The notes below the pieces were generated by a model. The model had not been told where the DNA came from. It was given only the letters and a program-made list of their open reading frames with translations, and did not search any database. Of a DNA stretch of 41,786 nt, positions 12,720-20,499 are shown in pieces. Where the stretch lies: assembly GCA_019310425.1 (NCBI GenBank), contig JAFDEI010000015.1:1-41786 (forward strand), given 5' to 3'. Source of the DNA: Deltaproteobacteria bacterium (GTDB lineage Bacteria > Myxococcota_A > UBA9160 > SMWR01). Position 1 is the first letter of the stretch, and each line of letters begins with the position of its first letter. The translations under genes and the position numbers were made by a program.

Positions 12720-13961
12720 TCAGTTCTCGACGACGGGTTCCGCCGCGCCGACTTCGATGAACGCTGCGTGCAGCGCCGTGACGGCAGCCTCGGTTTCGGA
12801 TTCTGCGATCACCACCGAGACTTTGATTTCGCTGGTCGAAATCAACTGGATGTTGATGCCCTTTTCGGCCAGCACCTCGAACATGCGAGATGCCACACCG
12901 GCGTGGTCCTTCATGCCGAGGCCAACGATGGAGACCTTGGCGATGTTCTCGTCGGCATCGATCGCCACGGCCCCAATCAGGCCGCCGACTTCGTTCGCGA
13001 TGTCGATGGCGCGGCGGTAGTCACCCTTCTGCACGGTGAAAGTGACGTCGGTCGTGCCGTCCTGCGCCAGGTTCTGGATGATCACATCGACGATGATACC
13101 CGCTTCGGACAATGGGCCGAAGATCCGCGCGGCAACACCCGGTACATCCTTCACGCCCCGCACCCGGATCTTGGCTTCATCGCGATTGTAGGTGACACCG
13201 GAAACAAACAGGCCTTCCATGATCTCTTCCTCGGGTACGACCCAGGTTCCCTCGTCGGGTTTGAACGAGGAACGTACGTGGAGCGGAACGCCATAACGCG
13301 CAGCGAATCGCACCGATCGGGTCTGGAGCACTTTCGCGCCGAGACTCGCCATTTCGATCATCTCGTTGTACGAGATACGCTCGAGCTTACGCGCTGCCGG
13401 AACCATGCGCGGATCGGACGTGAGTACGCCGTCCACATCAGTGAAAATCTCGCAGACATCTGCTCCAATCGCGGCCGCGATCGCGACCGCGGAAGTATCG
13501 GATCCACCGCGCCCGAGCGTGGTGATGTTGCCGCCGTCGTCCACGCCCTGGAAGCCCGCGATCACCGCCACCGAACCCTCGTCGAGCACGGAGAGAATCC
13601 GACTGGCATCAATGCTCGCAATCCGCGCGCGCGTGTGCGCGGTGTCTGTCCGCATGCCCATCTGCGCGCCCGTGAATGAGCGCGCGGACTTGCCCAAGCC
13701 GTGAATCGCCATCGCGAGCAACGCAATCGTCTTCTGCTCGCCGGTCGACACCAGCACGTCGAATTCACGCGGGTCGGGGACCGAACCGCCGAGATCCTCG
13801 GCCAATGCGACCAGCGTGTTGGTCTCACCTGACATCGCCGAGACCACCACCGCCACGCGGTGGCCTTCGGCCTGGGTCGCGAGCACACGCTTCGCGACAT
13901 TTCGGATCCGGTCAGGGTCGCCGACGCTGGTGCCGCCGTATTTTTGGACGATCAGGGCCAT
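12720..13961 (-). CDS. lysC: Aspartate kinase
   Basis: Phosphorylates L-aspartate, the first step to lysine, threonine, methionine and diaminopimelate. 413 residues. The kinase domain begins KYGGTSVGD (7-15), with [19 protein letters not shown] and [13 protein letters not shown]. Two C-terminal ACT domains follow (about 265-410; [20 protein letters not shown] and [20 protein letters not shown], quoted in part), so feedback inhibition by lysine or threonine is expected. It starts with ATG overlapping the end of tsaE by 10 bp. Confidence 0.97.
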
Positions 13962-14455
13962 CTGCTCAATTCCGGTCGTCGACCCCCGGGTTCGCCTTGG
14001 TCGAGCGCATCGGTCCAGCGCGCAAGGGCCACACTCGAAACGGGGCCGCAGCTTAGCGCGTGTAGGTCGCGTCTGTCCGGGTTGGTGATCGGATCAGGAC
14101 GAAGAATCTCGATTTTCAGGTGGTCCGGCGGCAGCACTTCGGGGAAGCGGTCACCCCACTCCACCGCAACCAGGGCTCCCGGCTCGAGCAGATCATCGAA
14201 GCCCACGGCCTCGAGCTCGCCGGCGTGCTCGACTCGGTACAGGTCGACGTGGGCCAAGGCGTGCCCCGCCGGGGTCGGATACTCGCTGCAGATCACGAAA
14301 GTCGGGCTCGCCACGCCGGCCGGATCGATGCCAAGGCCCTCGGCGAGCCCCTTTACGAAGACGGTCTTGCCGACACCGAACGCTCGGGGAATGAAATCGC
14401 AAGACGCGTCCCCGGGTCCGGCGATGCCTCCGCCGCTTCGCGCAGACGAGCGCAT
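13952..14455 (-). CDS. tsaE: tRNA threonylcarbamoyladenosine biosynthesis ATPase TsaE, N-terminus uncertain
   Basis: ATPase partner of TsaB and TsaD in making t6A37 of ANN-decoding tRNAs. The core is clear: [16 protein letters not shown] (P-loop), [30 protein letters not shown] and [15 protein letters not shown] match TsaE. The part before the P-loop in this frame (from ATG at 14455) does not look like TsaE: Arg-Ala-Phe replaces the usual Gly-Asp-Leu, so the first glycine of Walker A is missing. TsaE-like N-terminal sequence (PGTRLAIS) instead appears in the nnr frame just upstream, suggesting a -1 frame change near 14385. The end overlaps lysC by 10 bp. The nnr-tsaE order matches E. coli yjeF-yjeE. 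Confidence 0.75.
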
Positions 14456-15915
14456 TCTTCCGGAACCGCCCGAGCGAGGTCCCCTGCAATCAGCCCCGAA
14501 ACGCCCATCACAGCGGCAAGCCGGTCGGCGGCGGCTCCATGCACGAACGTCGCAATCGCAGCCGCCTCGAAACCGCCCAAGCCCTGGCCGAGCAACGCGG
14601 CAACGAGCCCGGTGAGTACGTCCCCGGTTCCCCCGGACCCCAGTGCGGGGCTGCCGGTCGGGTTCAGGCAGACCCTCCCATCGGGTGCCGCGATCACGGT
14701 CGCCGCTCCCTTCAGAACCACGATGCACTCCGACCGCGCTGCCAGCAATCGCGCCGCGGCCGGACGGTCGCGGTTTACTTCGGCGGGCGACGAGCCGAGC
14801 AGGTACGCGGCCTCGCCCGGATGCGGAGTCAGCACGGTCGGACCACGACGCGCCGCCAAGCGCTCCGGATTGCCTGCGAACGCGAACAGGCCGTCCGCGT
14901 CGACTACCAGTGGCTTGCGCAGCTTTGGCACCAGCTCCGCCACGAGCTCGAGCAACGGCACCGCCGCACCCGCTGCAAACGCACGCTCACTGGTATCCGG
15001 TATCGGCACCGTCATTGCCTCGGTGCACTTGATTTCAAGAATGTCGTTCAAGCCGGCTGGACACGCGATCGTGACGAGCCCTGAACCCATCCGCAGCGCG
15101 CCCTCTGCCGCCAGCGCAGCCGCTCCGGTCTTTCCCTCCGAGCCCGCGATCAACAACACGTGACCGAAAGTCCCCTTGTGACCCGTCGCCGGCCGCTCCG
15201 GCAGCCGCTGACCAACCTCGCGACGCGTCCAGACCTCCGCATCAGCCGGCAGATCGGCGTTGCCCTCCGCGATCCCGATTCGCGCCACGACCACGCGGCC
15301 CGCATGCGCACGCCCGGGCTCCAGCACCAGCGCGGGCTTCGGAGCCTGTATGGTCACGGTCACGTCGGCGCGTACCGCGACGCCAAGTACCTGCCCGGTA
15401 TCCGCGCACAGCCCGGAGGGCAGATCCACTGCCACCACGCGCAGTGAATCGCGGTGAGCGTCACGACCCGCGTTGATCCGCCGGACGGCCGCAGCCTCCG
15501 CACCCTCGACGTCACGCGAAAGCCCGGTTCCGAAAACCGCGTCGACGATGACACCGGCTGCCGGCGTGCGCCAGCGTGCGCTCTCGAACACGACCTCGAC
15601 TGCACGAGCGCGTTTCAGGTTGACGGCAGCGTCTGCGGCAAGCCGCTTTTCGTCGCCAACCAACGCGATGCGCACGGGCACCCCGAGTAGTTGCAGGTGG
15701 CGCGCGATCACGAATCCATCGCCGCCGTTGTTGCCCGCGCCGCAGACGACAACGACCCGGCCGCCCGGACGAAGCTCCGCAAGCACGGCCTCGCAGACGG
15801 CGCGGCCCGCACTCTCCATCAATACGTCGCCGGAGATCCCCAGCGCCTCGATTGCGTGTTGGTCGAGACGCCTGCTCGCCGCCGCACCATAGAGCCGCCA
15901 CACCTGCGGACTCAC
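14353..15915 (-). CDS. nnr: Bifunctional NAD(P)H-hydrate repair enzyme Nnr
   Basis: Repairs damaged NAD(P)H hydrate: the N-terminal domain epimerises NAD(P)HX and the C-terminal ribokinase-like domain dehydrates it using ADP. 520 residues. The epimerase half shows VVVCGAGNNGGDGFVIARHL (about 54-73) and VDAVFGTGLSR. The dehydratase half shows GHKGTFGHVLLIAGS, LTPHPGEAAYLLGS and the anion hole GSGGTGDVLTGLVAALLGQG. It starts with GTG at 15915. Normal Nnr sequence ends near [18 protein letters not shown]; about 30 further residues follow, and these include a TsaE-like stretch, so the true end, or a fusion with TsaE, is unclear. Confidence 0.93.
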   Translation of the reverse strand: MSPQVWRLYGAAASRRLDQHAIEALGISGDVLMESAGRAVCEAVLAELRPGGRVVVVCGAGNNGGDGFVIARHLQLLGVPVRIALVGDEKRLAADAAVNLKRARAVEVVFESARWRTPAAGVIVDAVFGTGLSRDVEGAEAAAVRRINAGRDAHRDSLRVVAVDLPSGLCADTGQVLGVAVRADVTVTIQAPKPALVLEPGRAHAGRVVVARIGIAEGNADLPADAEVWTRREVGQRLPERPATGHKGTFGHVLLIAGSEGKTGAAALAAEGALRMGSGLVTIACPAGLNDILEIKCTEAMTVPIPDTSERAFAAGAAVPLLELVAELVPKLRKPLVVDADGLFAFAGNPERLAARRGPTVLTPHPGEAAYLLGSSPAEVNRDRPAAARLLAARSECIVVLKGAATVIAAPDGRVCLNPTGSPALGSGGTGDVLTGLVAALLGQGLGGFEAAAIATFVHGAAADRLAAVMGVSGLIAGDLARAVPEECARLREAAEASPDPGTRLAISFPERSVSARPSS

Positions 15916-15943
15916 GCGTGCAAACCTCGCGGTCTTCCCCCAG

Positions 15944-16654
15944 TCATTCCACCAACGCCCGCAAGTCGCGCAGTGCCCGGTCGAGGCCGATCAACACCGC
16001 GCGCGCAATTGCCGCGCGGCCGACCGTGACCGCCGCCAGTGCCGGTGCATTCTCGATCACTTCCGTAACGCTGCGATAGCCGAGCCCGCCACCTGCCGCG
16101 ATGTGCATCCGTAGTTTGGAGGCCAGACGGGCCGCATCACCGAGTTTCTCGAGCTCGCGAACCCGCTCGACCGGCGGCAGGTCGATGATCGCTCCAGTAT
16201 AGAATTCGACGCCCTCGACTCCTTCAGCATGTGCCGTCTTGACCGCCTCGAGCTCGGGCTTGATCAGCGCCGAGACCGGAATGCCGCCATCGGCGAGTGG
16301 CCGCACCATGGGCGCCAGCGACACACCGCGACCGCGCAGGTCGAGCGGTTCGCACGGCAGCCCACCGTCGCGCCCCTCGTCAGCCAGCAGCACGCGCTCC
16401 GGTTGGGCCTCGAGCGCGATCTTCACAAGCGACGGATCGACCGGCAGCGCGAGTTCGAGTGTTCGCACCACCCGGCGCACGTCGCTCACATCCTGCGCGC
16501 TGATCGGCGCGAGATCCTCGTTGACACCCAGCCGAACTGCATCGACCGCCGCAAGCTCGGCGAGGGTCGCGGCAACCGCAACATCGACATCCCGCGCCTT
16601 CGCTTCCGAGCGAAGGATCGCCAACGCATCGAGGCTCAATGTGAGACGCCGCAA
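15944..16654 (-). CDS. PdxJ-like TIM-barrel protein with degenerate active site
   Basis: Homologue of pyridoxine 5-phosphate synthase by overall pattern and position after glmM: LTLSLDALAILRSEA, NEDLAPISAQDVSDVRRVV, GGIPVSALIKPELEAVKTA, GVEFYTGAIIDL, and a C-terminal AAGGGLGYRSV and VGRAAIARAVLIGLDRALRD align along E. coli PdxJ. Several conserved catalytic positions differ: Asn9 to Ser, His12 to Ala, His45 to Gly, Arg47 to Asn and His193 to Gly; Glu72 and the Glu of EIHTG are kept. It may have lost PNP synthase activity or use another substrate. Start: TTG at 16654, chosen because GGGAGG lies 8 nt upstream and the product aligns with the E. coli start; GTG at 16663 is an alternative. 236 residues, E. 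coli 243. Confidence 0.7.
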   Translation of the reverse strand: MRRLTLSLDALAILRSEAKARDVDVAVAATLAELAAVDAVRLGVNEDLAPISAQDVSDVRRVVRTLELALPVDPSLVKIALEAQPERVLLADEGRDGGLPCEPLDLRGRGVSLAPMVRPLADGGIPVSALIKPELEAVKTAHAEGVEGVEFYTGAIIDLPPVERVRELEKLGDAARLASKLRMHIAAGGGLGYRSVTEVIENAPALAAVTVGRAAIARAVLIGLDRALRDLRALVE

Positions 16655-16655
16655 C

Positions 16656-18023
16656 TCACGCACCTCCCAGCGCGCGCTGGAGTTCATCGGCGAGGTCCTG
16701 CGCGTAGCCGCCAACACGATCCTCGTCCTCTCCCTCCACCATGATGCGCGCCTTGGGCTCCGTGCCGCTGTAGCGGATCAACACGCGACCACTGCCATCC
16801 AGATCGGCTTCGACACGTTCGAGTGCCTTCGTGAACGTAGACAAGCCCTCGATCGGCTTCTTTTCCTTGACCGGCACGTTCACGATCACCTGCGGGAAAC
16901 GCACGAAATCAGCAGTGAGCTCAGCCAACGTTCGTTCGGAGCGTCGCATGATCGCGAGTGTCTGTAGGGCGGTGATCAGACCGTCACCGCTGGTGTTGTG
17001 ATCGAGGAAGATGACGTGCCCCGACTGCTCTCCGCCGAGGTTGTAACCGCCGGCGCGCATCGCTTCGACGACGTAGCGGTCCCCCACCTGTGTGCGGATC
17101 AGCCCGACCCCCAGACCGTCCAGCGCCTTCTCGAGGCCCATATTACTCATCACGGTGGCGACGATCGCGCCGCCGCGCAGCAGACCGCGCTCTTGCTGGT
17201 CGCGGGCGCAGTAGGCGAGCACCATGTCGCCATCCAGAACCGTTCCGTCGTGAGTGACGAGCACGCAACGGTCGGCGTCTCCGTCGAGTGCAATACCAAT
17301 GTCGGCACGCACCTCCCGAACCCGCTCGACGAGCTTTTCGGGATACAGCGATCCACAACCCTCGTTGATGTTCAGGCCGTTGGGCTCGACGCCCTGGGTA
17401 ACAACCTCTGCACCGAGTTCCTCGAGCACGGTCGGGCCGACCTTGTAGGCCGCGCCGTTGGCACAGTCGAGCACGACACGAAGGCCATCGAGTGCGAGGT
17501 CCGCCGGAAAAGTCTTCTTCAAGAAGACGACGTATCGCCCCTCGACGTCATCGATGCGTTTTGCGCGTCCGATCATCGTGGCATCGGCGCGGTGTTCGGC
17601 GAGTTCACCCGAGTCGATCAGGTCCTCGATACGCGTTTCGAGTTCATCGGGGAGCTTGAATCCGTCACTCGAAAAGAACTTGATCCCGTTGTCCTGGTAG
17701 GAATTGTGGCTGGCCGAAATCATCACGCCCGCGTTGCAGCGCATATCGGCAGTGAGAAATGCCATGCCCGGTGTAGGCATTGGCCCGACCTGGATCACGT
17801 CTACGCCCATCGAGCAGATTCCCGCCGCGAGCGCATCTTCGAACAGGTAGCCTGAAAGGCGCGTATCCTTGCCAATGATGATTCGGTGCCGGCCGGAATC
17901 GCGGCGGTTGAAGATGTGCGCGATCGCCTGACCCAGCGACAGCGCCGTCTCGGCGGTCATCGGGTGCACGTTGGACTTCCCACGGACCCCATCGGTCCCG
18001 AACAATTTCGCTTTCACGCTCAT
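16656..18023 (-). CDS. glmM: Phosphoglucosamine mutase
   Basis: Converts glucosamine 6-phosphate to glucosamine 1-phosphate for UDP-GlcNAc, peptidoglycan and LPS. 455 residues, full length. It begins [13 protein letters not shown] (6-18), has the phosphoserine loop MISASHN with Ser105, the metal loop ALDGDADRC, the sugar-binding GGEQSGHVI and the C-terminal phosphate-binding [14 protein letters not shown]. It overlaps ybbR by 4 bp, matching the conserved cdaA-ybbR-glmM unit in which c-di-AMP synthesis and GlmM are physically and functionally linked in other bacteria. Confidence 0.97.
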
Positions 18024-18733
18024 CCCTGCTGCAGCCCCCCAGCCGAATTTTCGTCTACCTCATCCGGCCCCGGCTCCGGCTCCGGCATCGAATCGATCTG
18101 CACGCGGATCGTCACGGGCTGATCCTTTTCGAGCCAGACGTGCCCGCCGCCGAGCGACAGACGCACCTGCTTCTCGAGCGATTCCGCCAGCCCGGTCAAC
18201 TCCACTGTTTCGGTCACAACTTCGCTCAACCGGAGCACATCACTACGCGCGCCGGTGAGCCACACCCGCTCGGGATCGACCACGACGTCACCGGCCACGA
18301 ACCCGTCGGCGGGATCCCCTTCGACATCCGGGCGGATCCGGACATTCTTCCTCCCGCGCGGTTCGATTGTGAGTTCGATGCGAGCGGGCGAGCGACTGAC
18401 CACCTTGATGCCACGCGGGGCTTCGATGTGGGAGGCCTCGACATCGTAGACCGCCGGACCGGCTTTCACGCCTTCGAGATTGACCGGATACTCCATACTG
18501 GTCGACGTCACGTTTCGCAGCGACGCCCGGCTGCCCTGCACTCGGATGTTGATTTCGTTGTTACTCTGCTCGGTGACGACCATGTCGTCAGGCAGGCCGT
18601 GAAGCGCCACGGAGATGTCGAAATTCTGCTCGCTGTCGCGCTCGCCGTGCGCGATCACCCACAGCACCATCGAAATTGCGATGGCCATGAAGATGTAACG
18701 CAGATTCCCCGGTCGCTGCCTCCGACGCGCCAT
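18020..18733 (-). CDS. YbbR/CdaR-domain membrane-anchored protein
   Basis: Partner and likely regulator of the diadenylate cyclase CdaA. 237 residues: a basic start [10 protein letters not shown], one membrane segment at about 13-28 ([15 protein letters not shown]), then an extracytoplasmic region with tandem YbbR repeats ([39 protein letters not shown]; each quoted in part). It ends in an acidic, Pro-rich tail ([12 protein letters not shown]). It begins 6 bp after cdaA and overlaps glmM by 4 bp, the canonical arrangement. Confidence 0.9.
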
Positions 18734-18739
18734 CGACCG

Positions 18740-19642
18740 CTAACGCCCCCAACGCATTTTCGCACGGTCGCTCGGGCTCGACGGCTCGCCGGATGCCTCG
18801 CCGTCGGGCCCGGTTTCCGCAATGCTCTCAGCGGCCTGCGGCAGTTCACGCTGTTCCCCACTCAGTACCGAGTGGAGCACGTTGCGAAGCTGCGGACCGG
18901 TGAGGTCAGTCAGCAGGTCTCCGCTCAGCACCACCGAAATCGCACCGGTCTCCTCGGAGATCACGATTACGAGTGCATCGGTCTCCTCGGTGATGCCGAC
19001 CGCCGCACGATGGCGGGTCCCAACGCCTTCCGGCAGGTCGTCGCGTAGGGTAAGCGGAAGAATACAGCCCGCGGCGGCGATACGGCCCTGCTGGATCAAC
19101 ACAGCGCCATCGTGCATCGGCGACGACGTCTGAAAGATCGACATCAGCAGGTCCTTGCTCACCTCCGCGTCGACCCGCGTGCCGGCCTCGATCTGATCAT
19201 CGAGCAGCGTCTCACGTTCGATCACGAAAATCGCGCCGATCCGTTTTTTCGTGAGCGCCTGCGCACCCTGAACCACTTCCTCGATGCTCTGCAGCTCGAC
19301 CCGGGTCGTCGTCGACCGGAAGAAGCCGCGTCCCACCTGCGCAAGCGCACGGCGGATGTCATTCTGGAAGATCACGATGAAGATCAGGACTGCGGACGAC
19401 AGGAAGTTCTCGAGGATGAGCCGCAGCGTCAGTAGCTGGAAGACTTCGGACGCGAGGCTCGCACCGATCAGCACCGTCAGGCCGACGAGGATCTGGACCG
19501 CCCGGGTGCCGCGGATCAGCATCAGCAGCCAGTAGACCGCAAAGGTAACGATCAGGATGTCGATGGTGTCGCGGATGGGGTCGAAGTTCACCCCGAGGTA
19601 TTCCCAGAACTCCTGGAGCAGCTCCCAGATCCGTTCGATCAT
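18740..19642 (-). CDS. cdaA: Diadenylate cyclase CdaA
   Basis: Makes c-di-AMP from two ATP at the inner membrane. 300 residues. Three N-terminal membrane segments (about 25-43, 48-65 and 78-92) precede the DAC domain with the catalytic DGA motif at 178-180 (SPMHDGAVLI), the RHR motif at 210-212 (GTRHRAAVG) and ISEETGAISV. The tail after about 265 is acidic and Ser/Pro-rich. The start is ATG at 19642, overlapping folP by 4 bp; upstream in-frame sequence is non-homologous. Position next to ybbR and glmM supports a role in envelope or osmotic control. Confidence 0.96.
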   Translation of the reverse strand: MIERIWELLQEFWEYLGVNFDPIRDTIDILIVTFAVYWLLMLIRGTRAVQILVGLTVLIGASLASEVFQLLTLRLILENFLSSAVLIFIVIFQNDIRRALAQVGRGFFRSTTTRVELQSIEEVVQGAQALTKKRIGAIFVIERETLLDDQIEAGTRVDAEVSKDLLMSIFQTSSPMHDGAVLIQQGRIAAAGCILPLTLRDDLPEGVGTRHRAAVGITEETDALVIVISEETGAISVVLSGDLLTDLTGPQLRNVLHSVLSGEQRELPQAAESIAETGPDGEASGEPSSPSDRAKMRWGR

Positions 19643-20499
19643 GCGGCGGCCTCCTGGCTCGCGTCGCGCATCGCGCGGCCGACCGCCACCGCCTTCGCCG
19701 CCCCGGCCGCATCGTGAACGCGCACAGCATCGGCGCCGGCGAATGCCGCGATCGCACACGCAGCCCAAGTCGCCGGATCACGCCGCTCGACCGGATCACC
19801 CGTAATGGCACCCAGGAACGCCTTGCGCGACGGGCCGACCAGCACCGGGCAGGAAAGGCGCCGGGCCAATGCGCCGATGTTCGAAATCAGTCGCAGATTA
19901 TCCTCGACGCGCTTGCCAAAGCCGATCCCGGGATCGACCGCGATACAGTCCGTCGCGACACCCGCCGAACGCGCTTCAGACACCGCCGCCGCGAGTTCGG
20001 CCCCGACCTCCGCCACCGCGTCGTGGTAGAACGGCTCTCGCTGCATCGTCTCAGGGGTGCCGCGCGCGTGCCCGAGGATCAATACCGCCTGCGCCGCAGC
20101 CACGACCCCTGCGAGGTCCGGATCGAAGGCCAGTCCCGACACATCGTTCACGATCTGTGCGCCCGCATCGAACGCGGCCTCGGCAACCGCAGCCTTGCGC
20201 GTATCGATCGAAATCGGCGCGTCCACCCGCTTCGCAATCGCCTCGATCACCGGTGCGGTGCGATCGATCTCGACCTCGACATCGACCGCCACGGCTCCGG
20301 GCCGCGTCGACTCACCCCCGATGTCGATCACGTGCGCGCCATCGCACACGAGCGATAGTGCTGCTTCGACCGCCGCTTCGATGTTCACCGTCGACCCCGT
20401 ACGCACGAAACGACCTCCGTCTGAAAACGAATCGGGGGTCAGATTCAGTGCACCGACGATCGTCACACGCTTCAGCGGGAAGATCGCCCTGGCGTTCAC
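19639..20499 (-). CDS. folP: Dihydropteroate synthase
   Basis: Condenses p-aminobenzoate with hydroxymethyl-dihydropterin pyrophosphate in folate synthesis; the sulfonamide target. 286 residues. Signatures: GALNLTPDSFSDGGRF (16-31), HVIDIGGESTRPGA, ISIDTRKA, IVNDVSGL, VDPGIGFGK and LVGPSRKAFLG. It starts with GTG at 20499, 9 bp after the ftsH stop, and overlaps cdaA by 4 bp. ftsH-folP adjacency is conserved in many bacteria. Confidence 0.97.
   Translation of the reverse strand: MNARAIFPLKRVTIVGALNLTPDSFSDGGRFVRTGSTVNIEAAVEAALSLVCDGAHVIDIGGESTRPGAVAVDVEVEIDRTAPVIEAIAKRVDAPISIDTRKAAVAEAAFDAGAQIVNDVSGLAFDPDLAGVVAAAQAVLILGHARGTPETMQREPFYHDAVAEVGAELAAAVSEARSAGVATDCIAVDPGIGFGKRVEDNLRLISNIGALARRLSCPVLVGPSRKAFLGAITGDPVERRDPATWAACAIAAFAGADAVRVHDAAGAAKAVAVGRAMRDASQEAAA

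Follow-up and report, generated by a model that had tools for sequence, protein, structure and literature searches.

A PdxJ orthologue at its old locus without most of the catalytic residues of pyridoxine-5'-phosphate synthase, in an order of Myxococcota

Plants possess a pseudoenzyme of vitamin B6 synthesis, PDX1.2, a paralogue of PdxS that works beside active PdxS. A search of the open-licence literature, outside of which lie most subscription journals, turned up no paper on pseudoenzymes of PdxJ, nor any on PdxJ in Myxococcota. PdxJ (PF03740, TIGR00559; E. coli structures 1M5W and 1HO1) is pyridoxine-5'-phosphate (PNP) synthase. The lid of the E. coli enzyme consists of residues 95-105 (PMC10471632), and pdxJ has served as the gene by which the DXP-dependent B6 pathway is recognised (PMC9997740).

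The gene considered here lies in a window of 41,786 nucleotides, the whole stretch of DNA that was analysed, and encodes a PdxJ-like protein, PdxJL. Those named records that carry it are uncultured Myxococcota or 'Deltaproteobacteria' MAGs, including assembly UBA9160. The gene and its neighbours are as follows:

12720..13961, minus strand: lysC, aspartate kinase, end of the conserved block (synteny and family profile)
14353..15915, minus strand: nnr, NAD(P)HX epimerase/dehydratase, directly downstream of PdxJL after a 28-base gap (synteny and family profile)
15944..16654, minus strand: PdxJ-like protein (PdxJL), 236 aa, TTG start at 16652-16654
16656..18023, minus strand: glmM, directly upstream with a 1-base gap (TIGR01455, 598 bits)
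18020..18733, minus strand: ybbR/cdaR-like gene in the conserved slot between cdaA and glmM (no NCBIfam match at 1e-10)
18740..19660, minus strand: cdaA, diadenylate cyclase, reading frame open from 19768 (TIGR00159, 235 bits)
19639..20499, minus strand: folP-like gene in a conserved slot (synteny)

The last of these I take to be folP-like from its sequence together with the slot it occupies. The TTG start of PdxJL lines up with the ATG or GTG starts of its orthologues and stands 1 base past the glmM stop; the alternative, longer start would be an in-frame GTG at 16717, within glmM.

By sequence and by fold, PdxJL is a member of the PdxJ family. It matches the Pfam model (PF03740) over its whole length, residues 3-234, with 134 bits against a cut-off of 24.5. 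AlphaFold2, given 30 orthologues, predicts a complete TIM barrel of PdxJ type (pLDDT 93, pTM 0.90), and the best 16 PDB matches to that model are all PdxJ, with TM-scores of 0.81-0.92 and about 30% identity. The next-nearest folds are ribulose-phosphate epimerases and TrpC-type phosphate binders. At the equivalog level the protein falls short: its TIGR00559 score of 106 bits is below the cut-off of 192.75, none of the PRK05265 equivalogs is reached, and every NCBIfam cut-off for PNP synthase is missed. PdxJL fails those tests for a PNP synthase that can be computed.

The block folP-cdaA-ybbR-glmM-[pdxJ]-(acpS)-nnr-tsaE-lysC is common to Geobacter-type loci, which hold canonical PdxJ, and to PdxJL loci. 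The first-pass annotation had placed the gene in the canonical pdxJ slot after glmM and aligned it along PdxJ, and the 1-base gap, the extent of the Pfam match and the shared synteny bear it out on both counts. In several relatives acpS lies between pdxJ and nnr; it is absent from the corresponding interval of the window, 15916-15943. In a tree built without the active-site columns, all sequences of the PdxJL family group together (100/100), and their sister group is the canonical PdxJ from f12, the sister order (95/83). Given this position in the tree and the old locus, PdxJL is an orthologue and not a paralogue. It is the lineage's native pdxJ, descended vertically where pdxJ has long stood.

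The catalytic and substrate positions of E. coli PdxJ (N9, H12, H45, R47, E72, H193 and others) were assigned from general knowledge, a presumption that holds up because the 18 active-site positions used have a mean conservation of 0.99 across 30 canonical PdxJ. In a gap-minimal alignment to the E. coli enzyme, PdxJL is found to have replaced N9, H12, R20, H45, R47, R50, H52, E72, T102, E104, H155, H193 and H216. If E153 (the Glu of EIHTG) is added to this set, E153 is the only member that PdxJL keeps; it also retains D11, G194 and G215. Some of the replacements had been claimed beforehand from the sequence and are confirmed by the alignment (N9 to Ser, H12 to Ala, H45 to Gly, R47 to Asn, H193 to Gly), to which are added R20A, R50L, H52P, T102L, E104C, H155Y and H216R. 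The same annotation held that two glutamates remain. It was right about E153 and wrong about Glu72, because the anchors D57/R62 and A83/P88 permit only a single 1-residue deletion between them, and this brings Ala69 to position 72. The sites that matter to the argument are listed here, with E. coli equivalents by alignment:

16634..16636, minus strand: Ser7, at the position of Asn9 (S, G, A, V, E or C in relatives)
16625..16627, minus strand: Ala10, at the position of His12
16526..16528, minus strand: Gly43, at the position of His45
16520..16522, minus strand: Asn45, at the position of Arg47
16454-16456, minus strand: Glu67, at the position of Asn70
16448..16450, minus strand: Ala69, at the position of Glu72 (Arg or Cys in most relatives)
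16316..16384, minus strand: beta4-alpha4 stretch, residues 91-113, equivalent to the PdxJ lid; degenerate, the family's least conserved part, with lower pLDDT
16205..16207, minus strand: Glu150, the retained Glu153 (E or D in all relatives)
16175..16183, minus strand: D158-L159-P160, a family-specific motif in the beta6-alpha6 loop (D and P invariant)
16115..16117, minus strand: Lys180, at the end of helix alpha6 (invariant in the family)
16088..16090, minus strand: Gly189, at the position of catalytic His193 (Gly in other degenerate lineages too)
16016..16018, minus strand: Arg213, at the position of His216 (invariant in the family)

When relatives were checked for the same substitutions, as had been suggested, the active-site losses proved to be present in all 42 aligned orthologues from the same Myxococcota order. 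Geobacter, Myxococcaceae, cyanobacterial and other PdxJ retain the catalytic set. Assembly error or chance is ruled out as the source of the substitutions, since dozens of genomes share the state.

In this order, PLP synthesis has moved to PdxS/PdxT. PdxS is found in 59 of the 61 members searched and PdxA in one, and canonical PdxJ is absent from every one of them; the slot gene, where there is one (36 genomes), is always of the degenerate kind. In the sister order, f12, the corresponding locus holds canonical PdxJ with its catalytic residues, and 6 of 7 genomes have PdxA; of the class- and phylum-mates tested for PdxA, 22 of 26 possess it. The order's only PdxA-family match, L036/L228 (G039:C14:37571-38404), is weaker than the phylum's usual PdxA and is probably a PdxA2-type paralogue. 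In the window's own genome neither PdxA nor a second intact PdxJ was found, the sole other PdxJ match having 13 bits, below the cut-off. The same genome carries pdxS in two pieces, at the ends of contigs C214 and C256, with pdxT downstream and a MocR-type regulator upstream; PdxT and MocR are named from a reading of the translations. The regulator (L226 171-1658, G000:C214), which has a GntR and an aminotransferase-like domain by translation and lies directly upstream of pdxS, is likely PdxR. The first-pass annotation had offered two alternatives and had asked for a second pdxJ or for pdxS/pdxT; with the cassette found, and no PdxA or second PdxJ, the first of them, that PLP synthesis had moved elsewhere, is supported. 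The second, a PdxJ-derived protein with a new job, is supported by vertical descent and by the purifying selection described below, and so the two hold together.

PdxJL is a working protein, constrained like its neighbours. In 13 within-genus pairs its dN/dS is 0.06-0.29, compared with 0.07-0.17 for GlmM and 0.12-0.30 for Nnr, that is, similar to the former and about equal to or below the latter. No stops or frameshifts occur among the aligned full-length copies. Decay is rejected by these dN/dS values, and because the gene is kept under purifying selection though PLP is made elsewhere, its product must have another job. That job is dispensable in some lineages: 16 members of the order have had the gene cleanly excised, leaving an intact glmM followed directly by acpS or nnr. 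Presence and absence require about 8 label changes on the GlmM tree, only 2 of which are forced by well-supported branches. With its reading frame and fold intact, its sequence under purifying selection and its catalytic residues lost, PdxJL is a pseudoenzyme or a repurposed enzyme.

What the new job is may be approached by asking where the constraint has gone. In canonical PdxJ (n=30) the active-site positions have a conservation of 0.99, the rest 0.67 (p=1.6e-9). In the PdxJL family the two values are 0.66 and 0.65 (p=0.9). Loops on the catalytic face are less conserved than in canonical PdxJ (beta2-alpha2 falls from 0.95 to 0.62, the lid from 0.75 to 0.50), and helices alpha3, alpha4, alpha5 and alpha6 are more so (alpha6 rises from 0.46 to 0.69), as is the new D158-L159-P160 motif. 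K180, R213, D158 and P160 are invariant in the family. This pattern of constraint favours a structural or regulatory protein over an enzyme. I take the barrel to be retained mainly for its flank and fold; the chief competing view is that it has a new active site.

I propose that the native pdxJ of this order, vertically inherited, ceased to encode PNP synthase once PdxS/PdxT had taken over PLP synthesis and PdxA had been lost, and that its product is now mainly a non-catalytic barrel for binding or regulation, acting most plausibly with a product of its own cluster. I consider this account somewhat probable. Orthology, active-site loss, pathway replacement, selection and dispensability in some lineages are computed; that the new job is mainly non-catalytic I infer. 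Purifying selection would keep the fold and reading frame for the other function, and the barrel would bind or regulate through the helical flank alpha3-alpha6 and the vestigial phosphate site.

GlmM, encoded next to CdaA and YbbR, is a weakly favoured candidate for the partner. The genes cdaA-ybbR-glmM immediately precede that of PdxJL, and in Firmicutes GlmM belongs to a complex with CdaR and CdaA, where it acts as an inhibitor of the c-di-AMP cyclase (PMC8573169). Among 21 gene pairs, PdxJL-GlmM also ranks first in partial distance correlation (0.48, p=0.0005), a weak signal from a noisy method that in a Geobacter control reaches up to 0.62 between unrelated genes. GlmM is a weak lead, a hypothesis only. 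PdxJL can be no essential partner of it, because the 16 relatives without the gene have intact glmM. Other points tell against a non-catalytic barrel. Pocket residues both new and kept (E67, E150, G189, R213) are conserved, as a remodelled active site would show; the conserved helix residues could be mere internal salt bridges; and part of the helix conservation (D173, K/R180) is present already in canonical relatives.

The window's order is not alone. A survey of 285 Myxococcota genomes found 24 with PdxS outside the order, of which 14 lack PdxJ, 7 have a degenerate one (G062, G090, G106, G114, G147, G197, G237) and 3 an intact one (G165, G183, G128). In G128, a member of f12 with PdxS and no PdxA, the gene (L177, G128:C5) is intact except for the lid (T102A, E104A), possibly a first step in the loss of an active site. 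Among the approximately 190 genomes with PdxJ and no PdxS, most of them judged by profile score and not residue by residue, the only slot copies recognised as degenerate are those of three f40 genomes, of G248 (f27) and of G178. The f40 genomes (G228, G201, G162; L213-L215) have neither PdxA nor PdxS and are perhaps B6 auxotrophs. G178, of f12, has a slot copy without H12, R20, H45, E72, E153 and H193, and a second, very different PdxJ away from glmM, L197 (G178:C73:32027-32749; also L180/L219), which looks like a replacement by horizontal transfer. Five f36 genomes (G144, G175, G204, G209, G261) have PdxA and PdxS and no PdxJ; their PdxA may be the catabolic PdxA2.

These degenerate copies in f27, f40, f14 and G178 resemble PdxJL in following glmM where the neighbour is visible, in keeping the fold and in having exchanged H193 for Gly. 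As with PdxJL, PLP can be supplied from elsewhere, through PdxS in f27 and f14 and through the second PdxJ in G178. In other respects they differ. The lineages f27, f40 and f14 have lost other residues than the window's order, all having Gly at H193 where that position is covered, and f27 members L183/L184, unlike PdxJL, keep N9, R20, R47, D49 and R50 and have E153 changed to V and H216 to Q. The degenerate lineages vary in the pocket residues they keep, but have the fold in common, along with certain helix residues (D173 and K/R180 among them), and this speaks for the non-catalytic reading. On the tree the degenerate groups fall apart in a way that favours more than one origin, and an AU test still admits a single clade (p=0.083 with all sequences, 0.32 without G178). 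That the slot gene was degraded independently in two or more further Myxococcota lineages (f27/f40/f14 as one, a single f12 genome as another) is likely, though not proven, because different residues were kept and because G178 falls inside its canonical family.

A further reading is that the PdxJ of Myxococcota carries an ancestral second function, non-catalytic and tied to the glmM cluster; whenever PNP synthesis became redundant, be it through PdxS/T or a second PdxJ, the active site would have been dismantled by a different path and the barrel retained for the second function. I offer this tentatively, as a possibility of some substance. If true, the slot gene exposes a moonlighting role hidden in ordinary PdxJ.

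The main rival to a mainly non-catalytic barrel is a neofunctionalised enzyme, doubtful to my mind and still to be taken seriously. It would have kept the phosphate site (G189-G190-L191 and G212-R213), which resembles a GG/GR motif common among TIM barrels, and would have assembled a second catalytic centre from D9, E67, E150, R213 and D158 for some other phosphorylated substrate. The conservation of E67, E150, G189, G212 and R213 (94-100%), the invariance of D158 and P160, the intact fold and the closeness of that fold to ribulose-phosphate epimerases and TrpC-type phosphate binders are all as such an enzyme would have them. Yet the former substrate positions as a whole show no excess constraint, the lid is variable, and the residue at the E72 site may be R, C, A, K or T (Ala in the window). 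Nor is a common new chemistry visible in the other degenerate lineages, where E153 is replaced by Val or Arg and the residue at H216 is Gln or His.

It is unlikely that PdxJL instead binds, but does not synthesise, PLP, PNP or DXP and serves as a B6-vitamer carrier, buffer or sensor, perhaps together with Nnr. The idea draws on the direct adjacency of nnr, on the remaining glycines of the phosphate site and on a reported B6-related moonlighting of the Nnr epimerase, an E. coli K192A mutant of which has less free PLP (PMC5938422). However, the residues that contact substrate are gone, and PdxJL and Nnr show no evolutionary coupling (partial r of -0.03). That the gene is a relaxed remnant, dying and held in place by operon polarity or by a lag in time, is very improbable. 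The multiple losses within the order and the early state seen in G128 are what one would look for in that case, but not the strong purifying selection, with dN/dS like that of glmM and full-length copies free of stops and frameshifts, and the clean excisions show that the cluster does not depend on the gene for spacing. Finally, it is scarcely credible that PdxJL has rearranged its active site and remains a PNP synthase. In spite of E153, D11 and the fold, both catalytic His, the ligands of DXP and aminoacetone phosphate, the second Glu and the lid are gone, and 60 of 61 relatives lack PdxA, the maker of the substrate, 59 having PdxS.

A core enzyme of vitamin B6 synthesis has here become something different throughout a bacterial order, and the change of pathway that set it free can still be seen. 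The similar events elsewhere in the phylum amount to a natural experiment on the role of PdxJ beyond PNP synthesis. There is a practical consequence as well: a match to PdxJ at the level of Pfam would wrongly assign the DXP-dependent B6 pathway to these organisms.

Compared with known systems, PdxJL shares with PdxJ homology over the full length, the TIM-barrel fold (TM-score about 0.9), the delta-proteobacterial gene neighbourhood and the residues E153, D11, G194 and G215. It differs from PdxJ in its identity of only about 30%, in missing the NCBIfam cut-offs for PNP synthase and in having lost the lid and the rest of the catalytic and substrate residues, and its genomes differ from those of PdxJ in having PdxS/T and lacking PdxA. 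With plant PDX1.2 it has in common a barrel of B6 synthesis that has lost catalysis and been retained. Unlike PDX1.2, it is an orthologue of PdxJ, and no active PdxJ is left in the genome beside it.
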